Part shown: positions 967 through 44,082 of the stretch, one piece after another | Numbering within the stretch: the stretch's first letter is position 1 | Layout of the letters: each line of letters starts with the position of its first letter | Virus record (IMG/VR): IMGVR_UViG_3300048927_000788 | Location: 1-45,169 of that record | DNA length: 45,169 nucleotides | DNA from: a virus | Direction: 5' to 3' (one strand) | Made by a program: the position numbers and the translations under genes | The notes under the pieces: model-generated | Databases searched by the model: none | Told to the model about the DNA's origin: nothing | What the model saw: the letters and a program-made list of their open reading frames with translations, nothing else

Positions 967-3387
967 ATGACTATCGTGCAGCCCACCCTTTCTCTCCGCG
1001 ACAGACAGCTCGCCCTCGAAGAAGAATCACTGACCCTCGGCGTCGACCGCTACCACAAGGAGCGGGACCGCCAGGATGAGGCTGACTCCGGCCCTGGCCG
1101 CCGCCTCATCCGCGACTGCATCACCCCCCTCTCCGCCGCCATCGACGCCTTTGTGGCCGAGGCGCGCAACGGCAAGCCCGGCAAGAAACACACGGCCGTC
1201 CGCTGGTGCGAGAAGTTCCCCTCGTCCGAGCTGGCCTACATCACCATCCGTCACTGCCTCAACGCGATCTCCAACGGCGAGACGCGTGTCCAGACGGTCG
1301 CCGAGGCCATCGCCACGTCCCTTGAGGACTCCATCAACTACTCCCGGTTCAAAGAGGTCTCCCCCGGCCTCCATAAGCCCCTTCAGGGCGTCCTGAAGAA
1401 GAGCACGTCCCAGCGGCACTCCCGGAATGTCATGGAGGCGGCTGTCCGGCGTACGGAGCTGGACCAGTTCGCGTTCCCCGGCCATGACGGCTTCCACTTC
1501 GGCATGAAGATGGTCGAGATGTTCATCGAGGGCACCGGCTTCGCCCACCTCTACAACGACTCGTCGCATGGGAAGACCCGCGAGCGCGTCCTGCTGCGTG
1601 GTACCGAGACGGTCATGACCTGGCTCGATAAGGCCCACGACGCGGCCGCCCACTTCGCCCCTGTGCGCATGCCCATGCTGGTCTCCCCGAGACCGTGGCG
1701 GGCCTCGAAGGGCGGTGGGTACCTGACGGACGCTGGCGGCTTGGTGCCGCTGGTCCGCACGCGCAACAAGGCGTACCTGCGCGAGCTGGACAATGCCGAG
1801 ATGCCCAACGTGCTGCGGTCCCTCAACGCGATCCAGGAAACCCCTTGGCAGGTCAATGCAGCCGTCCTCGCCGTCATGAAGGAAGCCTGGGACGCTGGCG
1901 GCGGCATCGGCGACCTCCCGTCGCGGGACCTGCTGGAACTCCCGCCGCTCCCCTCGGACGACATGGACCGCTACAAGGTCGAGGAGCCCGACGCCTTTAA
2001 GAAGTGGAAGCGCACCCGTGCCGACATCTACGAGAAGAACGCCCGCACGGCCTCCCAGCGCATCTCGGCGGCCCAGAAGATCGCCCTAGCGGCCCGCTTC
2101 GAGCCCGAGGAGGCCATCTACTTCCCGCACTCGCTGGACTTCCGGGGTCGTGTCTACCCCGTACCGGGCACCCTGAACCCTCAGGGAGACGACCAGGCGA
2201 AGGCGCTCCTGCGGTTCGCCAATGGGAAGAAGCTCGGCCCCTCGGGTGCCCGGTGGCTCGCCATCCACGTCGCCAACCTGTTCGGCGTGGACAAGGTGCC
2301 GTTCGAGCAGCGCATCCAGTGGGTGAGAGACAACGAGGACCGCATCCTCGACTCCGCCCTCGACCCGCTGGACGGCATGCGCGCTTGGACCGAGGCCGAC
2401 TCGCCTTGGTGCGCCTTGGCCGCATGCTTCGAATGGGCCGGCTATCGGGCCATGGGCGAGGAGTACGTCTCGCACCTGCCCATCGCCCTCGACGGCTCCT
2501 GCAATGGCCTTCAGAACTTCTCGGCCATGCTTCGTGACCCCGTGGGCGGCAAGGCAACCAACCTGGTTCCCCAGGAGAGACCGGCCGACATCTATACGCA
2601 GGTGATGACGGTCGCTGCGGATCGAATCCGTGCGGCGGCCGAGGGCGGATGCCCGCACGCCGCGTTCTGGGACGGCCAGCTCACTCGCGACCTGGTCAAG
2701 CAGCCGGTCATGACTCTTCCTTATGGCGTGACCCGTTCCGGCATGCGGAACCAGATCGCCGACAAGATGAAGAAGGCCGGCAAGGATGACTCGTGGGAGC
2801 ACGCCGAGTATCTCGCGGGTGTCCTCTGGGACTCTATCGGGCTCGTGGTGATCGCCGCTCGGGAGGCCATGGACTGGCTGAAGGCTGCGGCCAAGGTTGC
2901 GGCCAAGGGCGAGATGCCTGTGAGCTGGACCACGCCAGCCGGCTTCCCGGTCCTCCAGGAGTACCGCGAGAGCATCGGTAAGGAGCTTGAGACCTACGTT
3001 GCTGGGCGGCGCATGCGTATAACCCAGAGCGTAGAAGGAACGAAACTCGACAGCCGCAGACAGGCCCTCGGCATCTCCCCGAACTTCGTTCACTCGTGTG
3101 ACGCAGCTCATCTCATGCTTACCGTCTGCACCGCGCAGGACAACGGCATTAGCGACTTCGCGATGATTCACGATTCGTACGGAGCGCATGCCGCTGACAC
3201 CGACGTGCTAGCTGCGTCCCTCAGAGCCTCCTTCGTGGAGCAGTACAGCCGAGAGGTGTTGACTGATTTCCGTGACGAGCTGGCGGGTCAGCTCCCGGCC
3301 GACATCGCAGTAGATATTCCCGAGCTTCCCGCAGTTGGCGCCTTGGACCTCTCCCTGGTCGAGTCGTCGTTGTATTTCTTTGCCTGA
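967..3387 (+). CDS. T7-type single-subunit DNA-directed RNA polymerase
   Basis: This 806-residue protein aligns with T7 RNA polymerase (883 aa) along its length. It transcribes phage middle and late genes from phage-specific promoters. Visible landmarks: palm Asp509 in LDGSCNGLQNFSAMLRD (T7 Asp537), Lys578 and Tyr586 in KQPVMTLPYG (T7 Lys631 and Tyr639), His735-Asp736 in MIHDSYG (T7 Asp812), and the C-terminal foot ending FFA. It is about 77 residues shorter than T7, spread over the N-terminal domain and the fingers insertion. Start ATG has GGAG 8 bp upstream. It is the first gene of the rightward block and stands next to the left attachment site, behind two terminators. Confidence 0.97.
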   Translation: MTIVQPTLSLRDRQLALEEESLTLGVDRYHKERDRQDEADSGPGRRLIRDCITPLSAAIDAFVAEARNGKPGKKHTAVRWCEKFPSSELAYITIRHCLNAISNGETRVQTVAEAIATSLEDSINYSRFKEVSPGLHKPLQGVLKKSTSQRHSRNVMEAAVRRTELDQFAFPGHDGFHFGMKMVEMFIEGTGFAHLYNDSSHGKTRERVLLRGTETVMTWLDKAHDAAAHFAPVRMPMLVSPRPWRASKGGGYLTDAGGLVPLVRTRNKAYLRELDNAEMPNVLRSLNAIQETPWQVNAAVLAVMKEAWDAGGGIGDLPSRDLLELPPLPSDDMDRYKVEEPDAFKKWKRTRADIYEKNARTASQRISAAQKIALAARFEPEEAIYFPHSLDFRGRVYPVPGTLNPQGDDQAKALLRFANGKKLGPSGARWLAIHVANLFGVDKVPFEQRIQWVRDNEDRILDSALDPLDGMRAWTEADSPWCALAACFEWAGYRAMGEEYVSHLPIALDGSCNGLQNFSAMLRDPVGGKATNLVPQERPADIYTQVMTVAADRIRAAAEGGCPHAAFWDGQLTRDLVKQPVMTLPYGVTRSGMRNQIADKMKKAGKDDSWEHAEYLAGVLWDSIGLVVIAAREAMDWLKAAAKVAAKGEMPVSWTTPAGFPVLQEYRESIGKELETYVAGRRMRITQSVEGTKLDSRRQALGISPNFVHSCDAAHLMLTVCTAQDNGISDFAMIHDSYGAHAADTDVLAASLRASFVEQYSREVLTDFRDELAGQLPADIAVDIPELPAVGALDLSLVESSLYFFA

Positions 3388-36174: not shown

Positions 36175-36599
36175 AATATCCAGCAGAAATTTTCGTTGGG
36201 GTATCCAACGTCTGAAGATCGCGCATGTCCCCCCGTGGGCGCGTCAATGACCGCGCAGGTCACGCCACACGGGCGCGTCAAGGACCACACACGCGGCGCG
36301 GTGCCTATTCCGGGGCATCGGGGCGGCACCCGCAGCGGTACCTAGCCGTCTAAGTCATTGATTGATGGCCTGTCGAATCAGATGGGGCATCCAGCGCACG
36401 GCACCTAGGGCCACTGCACGGCCCCTATCGACACCACACGAGCCCTGACGGCCACCGCTGGCCCTGCCCTGCGGCGCTGCCGTGTGTGCGTTCGTGTTTG
36501 TTCTCATCTGTCGTTTTGCCCATCGAGCCCTGGACGACCCCACACGAACCCTGAGGCCACCATAGCGCCTCACACGACCCATCAACCCCACCTCATAAA

Positions 36600-36613
36600 T
36601 TGCACATCTGCAC
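36600..36613. promoter_or_regulatory. Operator candidate upstream of early promoter 1
   Basis: TTGCACATCTGCAC matches TTGCA-N4-TGCAA at 9 of 10 fixed positions and ends 4 bp before the -35 box. Confidence 0.5.
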
Positions 36614-36616
36614 CGC

Positions 36617-36644
36617 TTGACAATATGCAATTCGATGCTATAGT
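36617..36644 (+). promoter_or_regulatory. Strong sigma70 promoter 1 with overlapping dyad
   Basis: TTGACA (36617-36622), 16 bp, TATAGT (36639-36644). The -35 box is the left half of TTGACAATATGCAA (36617-36630), a near match to the dyad pattern. A repressor bound here would block host RNA polymerase. It would drive the early gene cluster to the right. Confidence 0.75.
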
Positions 36645-36859
36645 TGGTCCCAAGTCACGGCACGGACCGCCGACGACCTGCCCTCCACCCGGACGGCGCA
36701 GTGATGGAGCTACAGGGCACCACGGGCCACCCTAAGGGTAAACGTGGAGCCGCAAGGGAACCGAAGGACTAGCCACACGGCCCCTGAGGGAAACGAGCGG
36801 CGAACGGAGGGGATGCCTCCGCCCTGCTGGGCACTGTGAGACGGACTGAAACGCAACAC

Positions 36860-36887
36860 TTGCAAATCTACAAATGTGTGCTACCTT
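36860..36887 (+). promoter_or_regulatory. Sigma70-type promoter 2 with overlapping dyad
   Basis: TTGCAA (36860-36865), 16 bp, TACCTT (36882-36887). TTGCAAATCTACAA (36860-36873) is a near match to the dyad. Same geometry as promoter 1, weaker -10 box. Confidence 0.5.
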
Positions 36888-37007
36888 AGCTCCACGGTCA
36901 GCCACCACGGTGACCACCACAACCTACTCCACCGGGCTATTCACTGACCAGCTATGTCCCACGGGACGCACTGATGCAGATGCCACGGGCTAATCATGCC
37001 CACAGAG

Positions 37008-37021
37008 TTGCGAATTTGCAT
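37008..37021. promoter_or_regulatory. Further operator candidate
   Basis: TTGCGAATTTGCAT, a degenerate TTGCA-N4-TGCAA dyad, 34 bp after the second promoter's expected leader region and about 105 bp before the first small gene. Confidence 0.3.
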
Positions 37022-37098
37022 GGGATGCAGATTGGCAGGTGGTGCGAGTGATGCCTCTTCGAACAGAGGGGGCATCACTGGCAGCACTGGAAGCCGCT

Positions 37099-37207
37099 GC
37101 CTCCCCACGCAACCCAAGGAAACCTCATGCACCCCATCGACCTCTGGAAGCACCGCAGAAGACCAAACGGGGACCGCTTCGGCCTCCCCACGAACCCGAA
37201 GGAAACC
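37099..37207 (+). repeat. Duplicated 26-bp leader with ribosome site
   Basis: 37099-37124 and 37182-37207 are nearly identical (CCTCCCCACG, then AACCC, AAGGAAACC, one base shifted). Each supplies AAGGA 5-9 bp before an ATG (37127 and 37213). Probably a duplicated translation leader. Confidence 0.7.
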
Positions 37208-37225
37208 ACCGCATGTATCAGGTGA
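37127..37225 (+). CDS. Tiny early ORF (32 aa)
   Basis: ATG preceded by AAGGA; product MHPIDLWKHRRRPNGDRFGL, basic. Its 3' end overlaps the next gene's ribosome site and start. Too short for family assignment; supported by the leader repeat and by the pattern of neighbouring tiny genes. Confidence 0.45.
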   Translation: MHPIDLWKHRRRPNGDRFGLPTNPKETTACIR

Positions 37226-37356
37226 TCGACACACGAACGAAGGGGATCAAAGGCCGCTGGGCCAGCCCTATCGACGCTCGCCGACAGGCACGGGCACTGA
37301 ACCGCGCTTACGGGGAGTTCCGTTACGCCTCACGACCCATTGGGAGACCCGCATGA
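37213..37356 (+). CDS. Tiny early protein (47 aa)
   Basis: ATG preceded by AAGGAAACC. Product MYQVIDTRTKGIKGRWASPI, then DARRQARALNRAYGEFRY, basic and helical; short proteins of this style occur in phage early regions. Overlaps the next start by 4 bp. Confidence 0.6.
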   Translation: MYQVIDTRTKGIKGRWASPIDARRQARALNRAYGEFRYASRPIGRPA

Positions 37357-37508
37357 CACTCGAAGAAGCGTTTACGGCCCTTGTGAGCCGAGACGAAGCA
37401 CTGAAGGAAGTCCGCAAGCACGGCTGCGACAAAGGCGAGTTCCTGGCCGAGGTCGGGGACCGCGACGAGTACCTGGGCGAAGACGTGCTGGCATGGCTGG
37501 GGTACTAG
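37353..37508 (+). CDS. Tiny acidic early protein (51 aa)
   Basis: GGGAGA before ATG. Product MTLEEAFTALVSRDEALKEV, then HGCDKGEFLAEVGDRDEYLG; helical, acidic. No family recognised. Longer frames that begin at 36996 are rejected because they run through the operator and leader. Confidence 0.6.
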   Translation: MTLEEAFTALVSRDEALKEVRKHGCDKGEFLAEVGDRDEYLGEDVLAWLGY

Positions 37509-37511
37509 GCC

Positions 37512-37673
37512 ATGACCAACGAAGAGAAGTACCGCCGCGCACTGCTGGCGATCCGCGCTCGCATCCAAGGGGTGTGGGACCAGCCGGACCTAGTGGCCTT
37601 CGGGCCGCTGAACACCTGCGAGACCTCTGACGTCCTTGAGATCGCTCAGGACGCGCTGCGGGAGGACTGGTAA
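37512..37673 (+). CDS. Tiny early protein (53 aa)
   Basis: ATG 3 bp after the previous stop. Product MTNEEKYRRALLAIRARIQG, ending EIAQDALREDW; helical. TAATG joins it to the next gene. No family recognised. Confidence 0.6.
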   Translation: MTNEEKYRRALLAIRARIQGVWDQPDLVAFGPLNTCETSDVLEIAQDALREDW

Positions 37674-37783
37674 TGCCCATCCCGTACACACCGCCCGACC
37701 CGAGGACCGTGGCCCGCATCCGCGACGCCATCGTGGCCCACAAGGTCCGAACGAACGCAAGGGACGCCACACGGCGCCCGTGA
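37673..37783 (+). CDS. Tiny early ORF (36 aa)
   Basis: Start overlaps the previous stop (TAATG). Product MPIPYTPPDPRTVARIRDAI, basic C-terminus ARDATRRP. Supported by coupling only. Confidence 0.45.
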   Translation: MPIPYTPPDPRTVARIRDAIVAHKVRTNARDATRRP

Positions 37784-37850
37784 CCTTCGTCCCTGCCCCT
37801 TCGACGTCTGAGGGGGCAGCAGCGAATGCCACAACCAACGGAGACAGTCC

Positions 37851-37994
37851 ATGTGGACTCTGTTTAAGAACGGCGCCGCGTTCCGAAGCGGGCCGGGGTA
37901 CAGCGAAGCGTATCTACGCGACCTAGCGGGTATTGGGAGCAAGCACTATCCGGAGGACGAATGGGAAGTGCGCTGGGTCGAGGAGACAGCATGA
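37851..37994 (+). CDS. Tiny early protein (47 aa)
   Basis: GGAGA 7 bp before ATG. Product MWTLFKNGAAFRSGPGYSEA, ending EWEVRWVEETA. Stop overlaps next ATG. No family recognised. Confidence 0.55.
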   Translation: MWTLFKNGAAFRSGPGYSEAYLRDLAGIGSKHYPEDEWEVRWVEETA

Positions 37995-38239
37995 CCGTCC
38001 TCACCCGCACCACGGACTACTTGGTCGAGTTTGAGGACGGGATGCTGACCATCGCCCGGCGCGAGGACGGTCACTGCCTCGCCGTCCGCCAAAAGGGCAT
38101 CGCGGGGGGCTTTCGGGCCGACCTCGCAAAGTACGGCGCTGAGCGTGTCGTGCAGTTCTGGCTACGGCTGCTTTCCAGCCACGAGTGGAAGCCGCTGTAC
38201 AAGGCGTCCGCAATGCCGCGACTCCTTGGCGACAAATGA
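37991..38239 (+). CDS. Early protein of unknown function (82 aa)
   Basis: AGGAGA before ATG. Product TVLTRTTDYLVEFEDGMLTI, KYGAERVVQFWLRLLSSHEW; looks like a small alpha/beta domain. Overlaps the previous stop by 4 bp. No family recognised. Confidence 0.6.
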   Translation: MTVLTRTTDYLVEFEDGMLTIARREDGHCLAVRQKGIAGGFRADLAKYGAERVVQFWLRLLSSHEWKPLYKASAMPRLLGDK

Positions 38240-38249
38240 GTGCCAAGTC

Positions 38250-38275
38250 GTGCCCCTTAGTCACCTAGGGGGCAC
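38250..38275 (+). other. Long hairpin without T run
   Basis: GTGCCCCTTAG pairs with CTAGGGGGCAC around TCAC with one wobble. No T run, so a transcript-stability or processing hairpin rather than a classic terminator. Confidence 0.45.
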
Positions 38276-38320
38276 CGCTGGGAACTCTACCCATCACCCT
38301 GATAACCTAAGGAGGACGCT

Positions 38321-38500
38321 ATGGCCCCCAAGGCAAGACAGATGACACCCGACGAGCTGGAAAAAGTCCGCGCCGAGATCGGTAAGCTCATGGCCGAGAC
38401 CGCGAAGATCAATGCCGAGGCACGCTGGTATCCCTTCGTCGCCGCTGCGGGCGTCTTCGCTGCCGCGCTGGGTCTCCTGAAGATCATCAGCGCCATGTAG
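38321..38500 (+). CDS. Small single-pass membrane protein (59 aa)
   Basis: AGGAGG before ATG. Charged helix (TPDELEKVRAEIGKLMAETA) then AEARWYPFVAAAGVFAAALG as the membrane segment. A strong terminator follows. The architecture recurs in phage early regions and in small toxin-like proteins; function unknown. Confidence 0.65.
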   Translation: MAPKARQMTPDELEKVRAEIGKLMAETAKINAEARWYPFVAAAGVFAAALGLLKIISAM

Positions 38501-38531
38501 CGCCCCACCCGATCCCTGCGCACCACCAACG

Positions 38532-38556
38532 AACCCGCCGCCCTGGCGGGTTTTTT
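38532..38556 (+). terminator. Terminator ending the tiny-gene operon
   Basis: AACCCGCC pairs with GGCGGGTT around GCCCT, followed by TTTTTT. It separates the tiny early genes from the ArdA pair. Confidence 0.88.
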
Positions 38557-38579
38557 GTTGCCCGCGTTCAGGGGGTCAC

Positions 38580-38810
38580 ATGCGCGCCTTCCGCGTCGCA
38601 GAACTGTGCGCCGGCCGAAAGCCGAGCCGCATCGTAGTCGCTGATTCCATGTTCGACGCCGTACGTAAATACGCCCGGTGTCACGTCATCCATATCGAAG
38701 GTCCGTTGTTCGCCTCGTCGCGGGAGAGCCCTGTGCGGTTCGCCTGCGTCAACGAGGGACCACACGCGGGCCGCCATTTCATCGTCTACCAGATAGGCAA
38801 GGAGTTCTAA
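38580..38810 (+). CDS. Hypothetical protein upstream of ArdA (76 aa)
   Basis: GGGG before ATG. Product MRAFRVAELCAGRKPSRIVV, YARCHVIHIEGPLFASSRES, ends YQIGKEF; small alpha/beta protein. Two bp from the GTG of ardA, so co-translated; may assist antirestriction. No family recognised. Confidence 0.6.
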   Translation: MRAFRVAELCAGRKPSRIVVADSMFDAVRKYARCHVIHIEGPLFASSRESPVRFACVNEGPHAGRHFIVYQIGKEF

Positions 38811-38812
38811 CC

Positions 38813-39448
38813 GTGAGCGAAACGCGCTTCTACGTCGCGAGCTTGAGCGACTACAACAACGGGCACATGCACGGCGTTTGGATCGCCCTTGATGGCGACA
38901 CGGAACGCGCGGAGGTCGACGCGAAGATCGCTCGGCTCCTCAGGAACTCCAAGAACCCCAACGTGACCGTACAGGTCCGCGAGTGCGTCAGGTGCCTGCA
39001 TACGGATGCCGAGGACGGCAGCTTTGAATGGGAGTGCCCTGAATGCGGCGGCCACGAGTTCGCGACGGACGACAACCCCAGCGCCGAAGAATGGGCCGTG
39101 CATGACTACGACGGCATCCCCGCGTCCTTCGGGGAGCACCCGGACCTTGACGATCTCCTGGAGTTCGCAAAGGGCGTTGAGGAACACGGCGACGCCTTCC
39201 GCGCCTTCGTGGAGGATCGTGGCGTGACCGAGTTCATCCACGAGGATTTCCAGGAGAAGTACGCCGGGGAGGCCAACAGCGAGCTTGAGTGGATCGAGGA
39301 GCACATGGAGGAAATGGGTGTGCTCGACGGCGTCCCCGACCACCTCCGTTCGTACTTCGACAGCGAGGCGTTCCTACGCGACATGAAGCTCGCTGGCGAC
39401 GTGTCGCTGGTCGAGTTCGACGGGACCGTCTACGCGTTCTGGAGCTGA
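38813..39448 (+). CDS. ardA: ArdA antirestriction protein with zinc-ribbon insertion
   Basis: 211 residues, GTG start. FYVASLSDYNNGHMHGVWIA and EEWAVHDYDGIPASFGEHPD, followed by repeated acidic segments (EHGDAFRAFVEDRG, EFIHEDFQEKYAGE, EWIEEHMEEMGVLDG) and LVEFDGTVYAFWS, are ArdA. ArdA is an acidic DNA mimic that blocks type I restriction-modification enzymes. Between the first domain's helix and EEWAVHDYDG is an extra ~30 residues with Cys58-x2-Cys61 and Cys75-x2-Cys78, a zinc ribbon not found in the ArdA proteins I know. It takes the role of T7 Ocr, and it lies in the early block as Ocr does. Confidence 0.9.
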   Translation: MSETRFYVASLSDYNNGHMHGVWIALDGDTERAEVDAKIARLLRNSKNPNVTVQVRECVRCLHTDAEDGSFEWECPECGGHEFATDDNPSAEEWAVHDYDGIPASFGEHPDLDDLLEFAKGVEEHGDAFRAFVEDRGVTEFIHEDFQEKYAGEANSELEWIEEHMEEMGVLDGVPDHLRSYFDSEAFLRDMKLAGDVSLVEFDGTVYAFWS

Positions 39449-39459
39449 CGGGCGCTCCG

Positions 39460-39816
39460 TTAGTCGCGGAGTTCGCCCTGCTTTCGAAGCTCTTCGATGA
39501 TCTGTTCTTTTGTGAGCGATCGAGAGTGCGCGTCGGCTTCGAGCCGCACGGCGGCGGCTTCTAGATTCGCCTTCTTGACCTCTAGCTGCTGAATCTCACC
39601 GAGAACGCGATCCTTGTCCTCGTTGACCTGTCGAAGCTGGTAGGAGGCGGAGGCTGCTGCTACCGCCGTCCCGAGCTGAAACGCAGCGACTAAGAGCCCG
39701 CCGATTGCGCCCATCAACACCCACCACCAATAAACGGGCACTACCTGTGCCAACCACTGAAGCGTGATCGAATCGTTGGCCGGAGGCTTTTTCACAGGAA
39801 CCCTGGCGTTCGCCAT
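39460..39816 (-). CDS. Leftward membrane/coiled-coil cargo protein (118 aa)
   Basis: Membrane helices around VVPVYWWWVLMGAIGGLLVA (26-47), then a coiled coil (QLRQVNEDKDRVLGEIQQLE, LEVKKANLEAAAVRLEADA) to the C-terminus. Faces left, converging with ardA. Lower GC than the phage core. A membrane-anchored coiled coil in the lysogeny region could be an exclusion protein, but no family is recognised. Confidence 0.65.
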   Translation of the reverse strand: MANARVPVKKPPANDSITLQWLAQVVPVYWWWVLMGAIGGLLVAAFQLGTAVAAASASYQLRQVNEDKDRVLGEIQQLEVKKANLEAAAVRLEADAHSRSLTKEQIIEELRKQGELRD

Positions 39817-39893
39817 CGGTAATCAATCTGTTGAGAGGTAGGCCATTGTACCGCCCCAGCCTGCGCGTTCTGGAGCTGACGCTCGTCCCCGCC

Positions 39894-40373
39894 CTAGCGA
39901 TTCAGCAGCATAGACCAGCGGCTTCCTGTCTCAGAGGCTTCGAGCGTCGCAAGGTAGGCACGATCAAGGCCATCACCCGCTTGGCTGAAGGCCTCAGCCA
40001 TGTCCTTCAGACTCGACTCCGCGTCCAGGCGCTTAGTCGCTACGAGGCGTTCACGCATCGCTACAACTTCTGCGCCGAAACGCAAATAGAAGCCTGGAAC
40101 ATAAAGCTTCACCAGAGTTAACGCATGGTAGAGCTGGTATATGTCGATATCCGGCAATTTTTGCGCTTCCTTGAGATCGCCTTCTCGCAGGAGCAGCTCG
40201 CGCTGAAGAAATCCCGTCCGCATCACTAAAAGGATGTTGCATAGCTCTTCGAGCTTTGTTCTGCGAAGAACGCGTTCTGCATTCTGAGCGTTAAACATCA
40301 CCGTTGTAATCGCTGAAACGACACCGCTCAGCGCGATGGAGACAAGCGTTAGCCAGAGAGGTGTCGGCTGCAT
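39894..40373 (-). CDS. Leftward membrane-anchored cargo protein (159 aa)
   Basis: N-terminal membrane helix PLWLTLVSIALSGVVSAITT, then a cytoplasmic helical domain (RTKLEELCNILLVMRTGFLQ, REGDLKEAQKLPDIDIYQLY). Base composition is clearly AT-richer than around it, a sign of recent transfer. TATAAG about 35 bp upstream of its ATG on the same strand could be a -10 box; no clear -35. The gene at 39460 follows 77 bp downstream in the same direction, perhaps one unit. Role unknown; superinfection exclusion is a reasonable guess. Confidence 0.7.
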   Translation of the reverse strand: MQPTPLWLTLVSIALSGVVSAITTVMFNAQNAERVLRRTKLEELCNILLVMRTGFLQRELLLREGDLKEAQKLPDIDIYQLYHALTLVKLYVPGFYLRFGAEVVAMRERLVATKRLDAESSLKDMAEAFSQAGDGLDRAYLATLEASETGSRWSMLLNR

Positions 40374-40411
40374 AGAGCGCTCTTCGCTTTAGTTACAGGA
40401 CTTATATCACC

Positions 40412-40435
40412 AGCCGCCCCCGAGGCGGCTTTTTC
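40412..40435 (+). terminator. Rightward terminator facing the leftward cargo pair
   Basis: AGCCGCC pairs with GGCGGCT around CCCGA, followed by TTTTC. It would stop rightward transcripts that have run antisense through the cargo genes. Confidence 0.75.
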
Positions 40436-40463
40436 ATGCACAACGACCCGTAAGGAACCCCTC

Positions 40464-40652
40464 ATGACCCGCAAGGCCACCGCAAGAACCCCGCTCAGCT
40501 CCTACGTCACGACCTTCGAACACGAGGGCCGCAAGTGGGGCGAAAGCGTCAAGGCTGAATCCCTGAAGGCCGCCGAGTTGCATGCCGAGAACCAGGCGTA
40601 CACGCGTGGCCTCCGCATCGTATCGACCCTGCCGCTCAATCCAGGCGCTTAA
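40464..40652 (+). CDS. Small protein (62 aa)
   Basis: AAGGAA before ATG. Product TRKATARTPLSSYVTTFEHE, then KWGESVKAESLKAAELHAEN; small alpha/beta, basic start. Ends inside a leftward ORF (17-bp overlap). No family recognised. Confidence 0.6.
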   Translation: MTRKATARTPLSSYVTTFEHEGRKWGESVKAESLKAAELHAENQAYTRGLRIVSTLPLNPGA

Positions 40653-40878
40653 TCGGCCCGAGCAGCAAGTCCACGTACTCAGTCCCCCACTCGCGACCGT
40701 AAGCGACCGCTGCCTCAGCCGAGATGAGCACCACGTCATCCGGCGAGTCGGCCACCACCGCGTCCTCGGGATGCCCGGCTGGCATCACTGCCGCCGTGAC
40801 CGTGTAGCCCGCGCCTCGCCGCTTGGGCTCGCTCATCAATACGAACCCTCGGTACACCCAGCAGTTGTCGTCTTCCAC
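40636..40878 (-). CDS. Leftward small protein (80 aa)
   Basis: GTG 40878 with GAGGAG 7 bp upstream. Product VEDDNCWVYRGFVLMSEPKR, then YTVTAAVMPAGHPEDAVVAD and VAYGREWGTEYVDLLLGPI. Converges with the 62-residue gene. No family recognised. The longer frame up to 41373 is the antisense of the next gene and is rejected. Confidence 0.5.
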   Translation of the reverse strand: MEDDNCWVYRGFVLMSEPKRRGAGYTVTAAVMPAGHPEDAVVADSPDDVVLISAEAAVAYGREWGTEYVDLLLGPIKRLD

Positions 40879-40921
40879 GGGCGGCTCCTCGGCGGCGTGT
40901 GCCCTACTCGAAGGAAACCAC

Positions 40922-41638
40922 ATGAAGATCACCCTTGCCACCCTCGCGTCCGCCACGGCCCAGCAGGTCTTTGACCAAGTCCGCGACCACCTGCTTCGGC
41001 AGGGGGAACAGTCGATGCTCCGGGTCGGCAGCAGCCGCTGTGCATACCGCTCACATGACGGCCTAAAGTGCGCCGCTGGTTGCTTGATCGGGGACGACGA
41101 GTACACGCCGCTGATGGAAGGAAGGCGGTGGGACGGCTTGATGGGCGACGGCCACGTTCCCGCGCACCACGCGGAACTGATTGGTGTCCTCCAGTACATC
41201 CATGACGCCGGCCATCCGCGCGATTGGGAAGCGAAGCTTCGCCAGGAGGCAGTGAGGCGCGGCCTCGCCTGGACGATCACCCTCGCCTCCCTGCCGACCG
41301 CATCGGCCCAAGAGGTGTTCGAACAGGTCGCCAAGCACCTGCTGAAGCAGAACGAGCGGTGCCAGGTCGACACGAACTGCGCCTATCGCGGCAAGGCGGG
41401 CGCCTGCGCGGCCGGCTCTCTCATGTCCGACGCTGAAGCTGAGGGCTTGACGAAGTTCAACGTCGGCTACGGATGGCTCTCGCTGCTCGACCGAAGGCTG
41501 GTCCCGCGTGCTCACGCAGAGCTGGTGGTGGAACTTCAGCGCATTCACGACTCCTGGTGGCCGCACGAGTGGCGGGCCGGTCTCCAGCGGTTGGCGGCCT
41601 CCAACGGACTCGATGCCGCCTTCCTGGCGGCCCTCTGA
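40922..41638 (+). CDS. Phage protein with internal tandem duplication (238 aa)
   Basis: ATG with AAGGAA upstream. Two similar halves: residues 4-115 (LATLASATAQQVFDQVRDHL, CAYRSHDGLKCAAGCLIGDD, IGVLQYIHDAGHPRDWEAKL) and 119-230 (LASLPTASAQEVFEQVAKHL, CAYRGKAGACAAGSLMSDAE, VVELQRIHDSWWPHEWRAGL). Each half has a Cys/His set, CAYR-CAAG and IHD, that may bind metal. Single copies of this domain are common in phage genomes as conserved unknown proteins. Function unknown. Confidence 0.75.
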   Translation: MKITLATLASATAQQVFDQVRDHLLRQGEQSMLRVGSSRCAYRSHDGLKCAAGCLIGDDEYTPLMEGRRWDGLMGDGHVPAHHAELIGVLQYIHDAGHPRDWEAKLRQEAVRRGLAWTITLASLPTASAQEVFEQVAKHLLKQNERCQVDTNCAYRGKAGACAAGSLMSDAEAEGLTKFNVGYGWLSLLDRRLVPRAHAELVVELQRIHDSWWPHEWRAGLQRLAASNGLDAAFLAAL

Positions 41639-41680
41639 AGCCGATCTCGTTCCGCGAGACGACCCTCGCATAATCTCACG

Positions 41681-41709
41681 ACCCGGCGAGACCAGAAGCT
41701 CGTCGGGTT
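41681..41709 (+). other. Hairpin after the duplicated gene
   Basis: ACCCGGCGAG pairs with CTCGTCGGGT around ACCAGAAG (one wobble), followed by TCC only. Weak terminator or processing site. Confidence 0.4.
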
Positions 41710-41728
41710 CCTACAGGGGGAATTCTGA

Positions 41729-41902
41729 ATGTCCAAGCCCAACCGCTTTCCACCACCTATCTCCATCCTCATGGCCGCCCTCGCGGTCGCAGGATTCGCG
41801 CTGTCCTTCACGCACTCCATGGTGCTCCTGAAGGTCTACGCCGCGATCTACATCGCATGCTTCGCCGGCTGGCTGTACGTCATCAACCGCGCGGGGTCGT
41901 GA
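41729..41902 (+). CDS. Small membrane protein (57 aa)
   Basis: AGGGGGA before ATG. Two hydrophobic segments (PISILMAALAVAGFALSF and VLLKVYAAIYIACFAGWLYV). Stop overlaps the next ATG. No family recognised. Confidence 0.6.
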   Translation: MSKPNRFPPPISILMAALAVAGFALSFTHSMVLLKVYAAIYIACFAGWLYVINRAGS

Positions 41903-42018
41903 TGAGCCCGTTTTCCCTATGGGACGAGTTGAACGAGTCGCTTGATCGGCACCACGACGTGGACGTCGACGAGGCCCTGATTGACCTGCTGGACCGAGTG
42001 GGTTCTACAGCGACGTAA
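41902..42018 (+). CDS. Tiny acidic ORF (38 aa)
   Basis: TGATG coupling with the previous gene. Product MSPFSLWDELNESLDRHHDV, then DVDEALIDLLDRVGSTAT, acidic helix. No family recognised. Confidence 0.5.
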   Translation: MSPFSLWDELNESLDRHHDVDVDEALIDLLDRVGSTAT

Positions 42019-42269
42019 AGGGTCGCGATGTGACGATTTGGGCACATTGTGAGACGTCGCAAGAACCTACACACTTTCTTGACAACAACAACGATCAACA
42101 CAGGAAATGAAGATGTTCGCGGTTCGAAGGGTGCAGGTAGAGTTCGTCAGATGTCGGGCCGAGCGCGGTTTCTACATTGAGCGGCCACAAGATTTGCTTA
42201 TTGTCATTGCTTTCGGATTGGCAAGGCTCTATCTTGTCGGCGCAGAACCAAGCCCCGTTAGGATTCCCG
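42019..42269. other. Leader region of the regulator
   Basis: 250 bp of lower GC before the winged-helix gene. It has TTGACA at 42083-42088 without a good -10 box at 16-18 bp, and GTCGCGATGTGACG near TGTGAGACGTCGCA as possible repeats. An 87-codon ORF from 42107 overlaps the regulator in another frame and is not convincing. Confidence 0.35.
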
Positions 42270-42653
42270 ATGAAACAGTTGACCAAGGCCGAGGGTCTGG
42301 AGCTGGCGTTCTCGTTGCTCCAGAAGATTCGCCAGTTGACGGGCGGGGGAGCGCAGTTCTCTCTCGTTAGCGCGACGACGCTCATGGCGGCGCTGAAGAA
42401 CCCCGGCGAGCTTCAGTATGACCTCCTGAAGGAGGTTGGTGGACTGGATGCGTCGGTGTTGTCTCGCCAGTTGGACCTTCTCGACGGACACGGACGTAGT
42501 AAGGCCTCCGCTTCCCTGAAACCGTTGCTGGTCCGCAAACCCTCGGCCATGAGCCGCGTGAACAACGTGGTCGAACCGACCCCTGAGGGCGACGCCTTCG
42601 CTGAAGAACTCGTGTCCTTCTTGAACACAAAGCTCACCCGGCTTGATCGATAG
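42270..42653 (+). CDS. MarR-like winged-helix regulator, candidate phage repressor
   Basis: 127 residues from ATG 42270 (TTAGGA upstream). LQYDLLKEVGGLDASVLSRQ and LDLLDGHGRSK (48-78) look like the HTH of MarR-type proteins, LKPLLVRKPSAMSRVNNVVE (83-102) like the wing, and PTPEGDAFAEELVSFLNTKL (103-122) like the C-terminal dimer helix. Such proteins bind palindromic DNA as dimers. It is the only clear DNA-binding regulator in the lysogeny block, 68 bp before integrase. That it binds the TTGCA-N4-TGCAA dyads is my hypothesis. A frame to 42177 would add 31 residues. Confidence 0.6.
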   Translation: MKQLTKAEGLELAFSLLQKIRQLTGGGAQFSLVSATTLMAALKNPGELQYDLLKEVGGLDASVLSRQLDLLDGHGRSKASASLKPLLVRKPSAMSRVNNVVEPTPEGDAFAEELVSFLNTKLTRLDR

Positions 42654-42677
42654 ATCGCCGGGAAACCTAATCCCTAG

Positions 42678-42702
42678 AACCCGCCCCTGTGGCGGGTTTT
42701 TT
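42678..42702 (+). terminator. Terminator between regulator and integrase
   Basis: AACCCGCC pairs with GGCGGGTT around CCTGT, followed by TTTTA. Almost the same stem as at 38532. Confidence 0.85.
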
Positions 42703-42720: not shown

Positions 42721-43938
42721 ATGCCCCTCACTCTGAAGGGAACCCTCAAACCCGGCCAGCCGGACAAGCGGTACTACATGATCCGCGTCCAGGTGAATGA
42801 CCGCCGCGTCGCTGTGTCGTCCGGCACGCGCGATCGGGTGAAGGCCGAGGGCAAAGAGCGACTGATCTACGATGCGCTCTCGAACAATCGAGACCTCACT
42901 CAGGCCGACCTGGTCGCGCTCGTTCGCGGTGAGGGCCATATCCGTCATGCCGCTGCTGTGCGCGCGAGTGGCGGCCTTACCCTGAGCGACGCATTCGCTC
43001 GCTGCTTCGCCGATCCGCACGTATGGCGCAACATCCGAGCCCAGCAGACCTACAAGACCAACTGTAAGCACGTCACGGACTACTTCGGCGCGGACCGTGT
43101 CGTCGCCTCGATCACCCGCTCAGACCTCCAGGCGTACGTTACCGCCCAGCTCGAAGCAAAGACGCCCAGCGCTCCCGGCACCATCAATCGCCGCCTCGCC
43201 TGCCTCGGCCGCATGTTCAGTGCCGCCAGCGACTGGGACGATGGCCCGAAGGCTGTGCCGAAGATCAAGTATCTCGCTGAGAACGGGGCGCGGAAGTTCT
43301 CGCTCTCGCACGAGCAGGAACGCGCCATGTTCGCGGCGGTGGCCGAGCTGGACACCCTCACGCCTGGCCCGCAGGGTGGCCCCCCTCGCCGCCTGGACGC
43401 GCACCTCTACCTGCGGCTGTTCAAGGTCCTGGTCGAGAGCGGCGTGCGCCTCACGGAGGCCCTGAAGCTCCAGTGGACCGACGTACAGATGACCGCGTCG
43501 GGTAGCGGCGTCCTGCGCTTCTACCGCACGAAGGAGATCAAGAACAACAAGGCTCGCTCAGTCCCGATGACGGAGGTCTGCGCGGCGGTGCTGAAGGAGA
43601 TCGCGGACGAGCCGAGGCGACGTCGTCATGGCCCCTTCGAGGACCTCAACAAGAACCGGGCGGAGCACATCTGGAATGCGGCAAAGGCGCGCTCGGGCAT
43701 CACGGACCGGGACTGCGTGATCCATGCGCTCCGGCACACCTGTGCGACGCGTCTGCTGAAGGCCACCGGAAACATCGTGCTCGTGAAGGAATGGCTCGGC
43801 CACACGACGATCAAGACGACGGCGGACACGTACGCTCACGTCGAAACCGAGAGCCTGATGGATGGTGCCGAAGCCCTCACGGCTCTTCGTGGCACCTCTC
43901 GTGTAAATGCTCAAGCCGGTAAGGACAGCAACCCTTAA
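42721..43938 (+). CDS. int: Tyrosine recombinase integrase
   Basis: 405 residues from ATG 42721. N-terminal beta domain (MPLTLKGTLKPGQPDKRYYM), core-binding helices around 90-190, catalytic domain with Arg243 (ESGVRLTEAL), His335-x2-Arg338 (IHALRHTCATRL), His361 (WLGHTTIKTT) and nucleophile Tyr371 (DTYAHVE). All five key residues are present. It catalyses integration at the tRNA-Leu gene 60 bp downstream and, with an excision factor I cannot identify, excision. Transcribed towards the attachment site, so in circular DNA its transcript would cross attP into the RNA polymerase region. Confidence 0.95.
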   Translation: MPLTLKGTLKPGQPDKRYYMIRVQVNDRRVAVSSGTRDRVKAEGKERLIYDALSNNRDLTQADLVALVRGEGHIRHAAAVRASGGLTLSDAFARCFADPHVWRNIRAQQTYKTNCKHVTDYFGADRVVASITRSDLQAYVTAQLEAKTPSAPGTINRRLACLGRMFSAASDWDDGPKAVPKIKYLAENGARKFSLSHEQERAMFAAVAELDTLTPGPQGGPPRRLDAHLYLRLFKVLVESGVRLTEALKLQWTDVQMTASGSGVLRFYRTKEIKNNKARSVPMTEVCAAVLKEIADEPRRRRHGPFEDLNKNRAEHIWNAAKARSGITDRDCVIHALRHTCATRLLKATGNIVLVKEWLGHTTIKTTADTYAHVETESLMDGAEALTALRGTSRVNAQAGKDSNP

Positions 43939-43997: not shown

Positions 43998-44082
43998 TGG
44001 TGCGAGAGATGGGACTCGAACCCACACATCTTGCGATGCCAGAACCTAAATCTGGTGCGTCTACCAATTCCGCCACTCTCGC
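43998..44082 (-). tRNA. tRNA-Leu (anticodon UAG), right attachment site
   Basis: 85 nt leftward. Acceptor stem GCGAGAG with CTCTCGC, D-arm GCGGAATTGGTAGACGC, anticodon stem CCAGA-TCTGG with loop TTTAGGT giving anticodon TAG, long variable arm CATCGCAAGATG, T-arm GGGTTCGAGTCCC, encoded CCA at 43998-44000. All stems pair. The core at 44040-44052 marks the crossover, so the 5' part is chromosomal and the 3' 45 nt or so come from the phage. Confidence 0.95.

Follow-up and report, generated by a model that had tools for sequence, protein, structure and literature searches.

The window analyzed here is a stretch of 45,169 nucleotides comprising the whole of viral record IMGVR_UViG_3300048927_000788; sequences and contigs compared with it are identified below by L-numbers. 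The window, a T7-like provirus, encodes its own T7-like RNA polymerase (967-3387), a DNA polymerase, a head-tail adaptor, a terminase and a tyrosine integrase (42721-43938). A tRNA-Leu gene adjoins it at 43998-44082, and an imperfect, partial copy of this tRNA near the left end (~568-628) shares with it the segments GGGACTCGAACCC and CAGAACCTAAATC at one offset, 43430. This partial copy probably marks the left attachment site; if circularised at the tRNA sites, the genome would have ardA ahead of the polymerase gene, broadly like gene 0.3 in T7.

The ardA gene occupies positions 38813..39448 of the + strand, starts with GTG and encodes 211 amino acids; reading of the sequence gave exactly the limits originally predicted. 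A Shine-Dalgarno-like AAGGAG (38799..38804, +), also read directly, is placed 8 nt 5' of the GTG and overlaps the end of a 76-aa ORF (38580..38810, +) for which no family match was obtained, and which is found upstream of ardA in contig L002 as well. In the latter an extra ORF of 67 aa (L002:2801-3004), absent from the window, is located between the 76-aa ORF and ardA. Upstream of the 76-aa ORF/ardA pair there is a terminator-like hairpin followed by a T tract (38531..38553, +); the region scanned holds 6 sites of this kind vs 4.5 expected from shuffles. The only promoter-like site in 36200-42700 is a sigma-70-like TTGACA-16-TATAGT with a TG before the second hexamer (36617-36644, 11/12), one site being found against 0.9 expected by chance; from ardA it is separated by the terminator-like hairpin. 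In the same part of the genome, 40922-41638 encodes a protein in which two similar halves can be discerned by eye (TLASxxxAQxVFxQV...HLL); it matches phrog_17693, a family of unknown function (E 4.9e-49).

By profile, fold and acidity the window protein is an ArdA, as the original prediction had it. The product matches PF07275 over residues 7-201 (107.7 bits, E 1.1e-30; the Pfam gathering score is 27 bits) and, in PHROG, phrog_2059, 'anti-restriction protein' (E 1.1e-28). Its sequence also matches that of Tn916 ArdA (2w82), which is the top PDB fold match for the predicted structure (E 3.3e-5, probability 1.00). The composition of the whole protein is that of a DNA mimic, having 50 D/E vs 15 K/R and a computed pI of 4.3. 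Cysteines are restricted to four positions, C58, C61, C75 and C78.

The structure was modeled with AlphaFold2 as a monomer, using 92 aligned sequences (mean pLDDT 92.5, pTM 0.83). The first part of ArdA domain 1 (38813..38956, +; aa 1-48) contains strands 4-10 and 21-26 and helix 32-44, as delimited by the model, the Tn916 alignment and the published domain limits (PMC3906837). It is followed by an insert of 43 residues (38957..39085, +; aa 49-91, PNVTVQVRECVRC...CPECGG...NPSA), within which the sequence reads as two CxxC pairs, C58/C61 (38984..38995, +) and C75/C78 (39035..39046, +). Immediately 3' of the insert is EEWAVHDYDG (39086..39115, +), assigned by the Tn916 alignment and the model to the next strand of domain 1 (94-100 in the model), and domains 2 and 3 would extend over 39134..39445 (+; ~aa 108-211) according to the monomer model, the fold match to 2w82 and the domain roles described in PMC3906837. 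The spacing from YNxG to EEWxxHDY amounts to 70 residues vs ~28 in ordinary ArdA. Domain 1 of Tn916 ArdA comprises residues 1-61 (PMC3906837) and EEWAVHDYDG aligns with residues ~44-52 of that protein, thus inside domain 1; on this alignment the insert lies between the domain 1 helix and the strand that follows it, and not behind domain 1. The Cys58-x2-Cys61/Cys75-x2-Cys78 module of the original prediction is therefore present, although its placement between the first domain and EEWAVHDYDG has to be corrected to a site within that domain.

In the model the insert is predicted to form a beta-hairpin with the cysteine pairs towards its tip, the strand pairing being read from the secondary-structure string. 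Its two strands cover residues 51-58 and 83-90, and the CxxC pairs are separated by a third, short one (64-66); C58 falls at the end of the first insert strand and C61, C75 and C78 in the tip. Values of pLDDT, taken by block of ten, range from 70 to 83 over residues 51-90, the tip being the part of the model with the lowest confidence. The structure prediction that had been proposed as a check thus returned a hairpin carrying the cysteines towards its end. A short hairpin at the same site (strands 49-52 and 59-62) is also predicted, with pLDDT 96.1, for the cysteine-free relative L078.

To survey the insert site we assembled 150 distinct ArdA cores from scans of viral contigs and genomes, supplemented by a small number of annotated records of phages and plasmids; because proteins bearing the insert served as seeds for the viral scans, the proportions of the classes are biased and do not represent natural frequencies. 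At the insert site, 65 cores have 'PNV', replaced in one case by 'PNI', and after it two or more CxxC pairs (hereafter zinc-type inserts), while 17 have a PNV-type insert without two CxxC pairs (16 of these being short, cysteine-free hairpins) and 68 have no insert. Exactly one CxxC was found in none of the inserts among the 150 cores. When only inserts of at least 24 residues are considered, 65/66 contain at least two CxxC pairs; the exception, L226, has a 53-residue insert with a single cysteine and no CxxC, and its close relative L214 (82% core identity) is of the zinc type. For these counts CxxC spacing was scored by pattern, as the column of C61 in the MAFFT alignment looks variable from the placement of gaps in the loop. 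The homologue search suggested with the original prediction therefore recovered many insert-bearing proteins, and rarity of the insert is not borne out by 65 of 150 cores in this biased sample. As to the cysteines, an insert common without conserved cysteines, or cysteines lacking conservation, had been named as the outcomes speaking against the prediction; neither was observed, and what we found is at least two CxxC pairs or none.

The viral-contig scans ruled out that the insert is peculiar to the phage of the window. That it might be a general feature of ArdA was discarded by an unseeded PF07275 search of ~550 genomes, in which the matches with both motifs showed ordinary spacing and no cysteines, except for L018, whose ArdA is identical to that of viral contig L065, and by plasmid ArdA, the best of which among the matches listed span ~440-510 bases, a length that leaves no room for the insert. 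It is likewise absent from the examples of Mycobacterium and Rhodococcus phage ArdA that we considered (L051, L054). Some proteins show elaborations of the site: the inserts of L092 and L285 are doubled zinc modules with 10 and 8 cysteines, and in L215, L230 and L231 about 50 further residues (TLEEQL.NA.ET.G.....Y.G.TR..AL.AF) are nested in the zinc loop. A Luteibacter MAG (L005:5001-5372) contains a remnant of ArdA, which begins immediately ahead of the EEWAVHDY strand and is preceded by unrelated sequence; this remnant is broken at the insert site.

Both length and sequence vary greatly at the insert site, the outer pairs of zinc-type inserts being separated by anything from 4 to 62 residues, and some of this may be due to relaxed constraint on a surface loop. 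Such variability is what would be seen were the cysteines a chance cluster in a fast-evolving surface loop that binds no metal; this explanation we regard as extremely improbable, given the two or more pairs in nearly all long inserts, the lack of inserts with exactly one, and a simulated chance of 1.3e-4 for at least two CxxC in 41 residues of one sequence at the core cysteine frequency of the family (1.5%). Cysteine content reaches 10.7% in zinc-type inserts vs 1.4% in their cores. An all-or-none pattern of cysteines, in a loop whose remaining sequence drifts, argues for selection on a metal site and disfavours neutrality. We thus have considerable confidence in the module as a genuine metal-binding hairpin under selection.

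The identity of the metal was approached through known zinc families. None of them reached its curated cut-off with the window insert, the best being Anti-TRAP (E 0.054, 13.9 bits vs a cut-off of 32 in Pfam), and scans with PADLOC and NCBIfam gave sub-threshold noise only. Pfam matches among the relatives (n=92) were to DnaJ_CXXCXGXG (28, best 6.9e-8), Zn_ribbon_IS1595 (16) and Anti-TRAP (32). The CxxCxGxG motif is present in 47/65 zinc-type ArdA and absent in the window, which has CPECGGHE. Two features of zinc ribbons or knuckles are found in the window insert, namely two CxxC pairs and their position on a predicted beta-hairpin; the four cysteines very probably bind one metal ion, which we infer to be zinc.

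The history of the site was followed on a tree built from the ArdA cores with the insert excluded, using SH-aLRT as branch support. The sister of the window is L002 (100%), whose core is 80% identical and in which the insert is wholly absent; both belong to a clade of nine (97%), 8/9 of which carry a zinc module. As the surrounding clade has inserts, the simplest reading is that the insert was likely lost in L002. We rejected the idea that the window acquired its insert recently from a foreign source, because the GC3 values of insert (0.84) and ardA core (0.86-0.88) are similar and the clade bears inserts. Mapped on the whole core tree, the zinc label changes 19 times, with at least 8 of these changes forced by starred branches. 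Moreover, similar cores may have dissimilar inserts, as in L072-L074 (core 90%, insert 49% identity) and L225-L234 (94% and 58%), and the reverse case is seen in L072-L086 (core 78%, insert 98%); L072, L074 and L083 were also aligned at the DNA level. Recombination at the insert site would be the simplest cause of these mismatches. The module of the window itself differs in type from those of its clade, the first cysteine being insert residue 10 and not 7, and CxxCxGxG being absent. Since inserts vary independently of cores and a cysteine-free hairpin may occupy the same position, the site behaves as an exchangeable appendage that holds a zinc module, a short cysteine-free hairpin or nothing.

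What the finger does may be considered in the light of work on Tn916 ArdA. Mutagenesis placed the antimodification function in domain 3, and that of antirestriction in domains 1-2 (PMC3906837); domain 3 also forms the dimer, and in a structural model domains 1-2 project beyond the methyltransferase core, where they were proposed to bind HsdR (PMC3906837). If so, the HsdR-facing end of the protein is where a domain 1 finger would be located. In the mechanism that we propose, the acidic core of ArdA would compete with DNA for type I restriction-modification enzymes, while domain 1 would carry an extended beta-hairpin with two CxxC knuckles and a probable zinc ion. Through this finger the protein may gain, or tune, a contact with HsdR, the restriction subunit, or with a related nuclease; the contact may in turn tune the set of host enzymes blocked or the tightness of the block. 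Contact of the zinc-finger hairpin with HsdR, adjusting the target range, is our leading interpretation, held tentatively and at somewhat below even chances; it would explain why the finger is variable and swapped. On the other side, ArdA proteins that lack the module are reported to be active. The idea of the original prediction, an added binding partner and a wider range of blocked defences, is plausible for the same reason, as antirestriction resides in domains 1-2 and these were suggested to face HsdR.

The chief rival is that the zinc knuckle is a structural cap, which would stabilise the extended domain 1 hairpin, add acidic surface and lengthen the DNA mimic, without engaging a separate partner. 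We consider this explanation possible, albeit doubtful. The occurrence of a short cysteine-free hairpin in the same place is in line with it, and so is the charge of the inserts, mildly acidic on average (mean net ~ -2.6) and clearly so in the window (10 D/E vs 2 K/R); nonetheless zinc-type inserts are less acidic than their cores (13.7% vs 22.9% D/E), the loops between the cysteines differ widely and are apparently swapped among close relatives, beyond what a cap needs, and L002 manages without any hairpin.

The finger might instead contact a partner outside type I systems, with nucleic acid (as in autoregulation), host RNA polymerase or a different defence system as candidates. Zinc knuckles and ribbons often bind protein or nucleic acid, and the module types resemble them. 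DNA mimics are known to vary in their targets: Ocr blocks BREX and the tested plasmid ArdA does not, whereas neither of them blocks EcoPI (PMC10149784). However, linkage to a particular partner was not found, and direct binding to DNA is less likely for inserts that on average lack a basic character; we thus judge a partner of this kind rather improbable. Still less credit is given to a redox or metal switch, in which oxidation or loss of zinc at the four cysteines would toggle ArdA activity: the window protein has no other cysteines, as would suit such a switch, but several module-bearing relatives have cysteines in the core, absence of the module is tolerated and there is no independent sign of switching, so that this explanation appears very unlikely.

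Returning to contact with HsdR, a broader and more speculative extension, unlikely on balance, is that domain 1 constitutes a modular specificity site at which recombined fingers and hairpins re-aim the DNA mimic at particular restriction subunits or defence nucleases. If this were true, one DNA-like body would be redirected to different host enzymes. Shape and charge are the usual explanation for DNA mimics. They differ, however, in the defences that they block, and the variable, apparently exchangeable finger, on the portion of ArdA to which antirestriction has been assigned, is a concrete candidate for the source of specificity, with the ArdA of L002 as a natural insert-less control.

Variants of ArdA are known that have N- and C-terminal extensions or are small forms with one end (PMC3906837, PMC3969726, PMC12548430). 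In the literature on ArdA and zinc available to us, in which subscription journals are thinly covered, no description of the insert was found, and an earlier report of a zinc-type insert is possible. When compared with Tn916 ArdA (Orf18, PDB 2w82; the same chain is present in 7bto and 7btr), the window protein has in common an acidic composition, the fold in its predicted structure, a YxAxLxxYNxG-like start and the EE-A-HDYE motifs; in contrast, Tn916 ArdA has neither insert nor zinc module and is of 165 aa vs 211 aa. The closest relative, L002 ArdA (IMG/VR contig 2519899668_000002; 80% core identity), has the same 76-aa ORF upstream, and differs from the window in lacking the insert and in its additional ORF before ardA. 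DnaJ_CXXCXGXG, Anti-TRAP and Zn_ribbon_IS1595 knuckles and ribbons share paired CxxC with the window module, which nevertheless has no CxxCxGxG and stays below the cut-off of every one of these families. T7 Ocr (gene 0.3) is an antirestriction DNA mimic of a T7-like phage and would resemble the window ArdA in its action. The structure of Ocr is unrelated to that of ArdA. Finally, gp04 of Pseudomonas phage vB_PsyP_3MF5 (Warsawvirus, Autographiviridae), encoded near the left end (1.8 kb) of a T7-like genome and annotated simply as an anti-restriction protein, is an ArdA with a four-cysteine insert at the same site (PNVTVACPHC...CSHCDGYG); it is 37% identical to the window ArdA, from which it differs in that its second pair is of the DnaJ type, CxxCxGxG.
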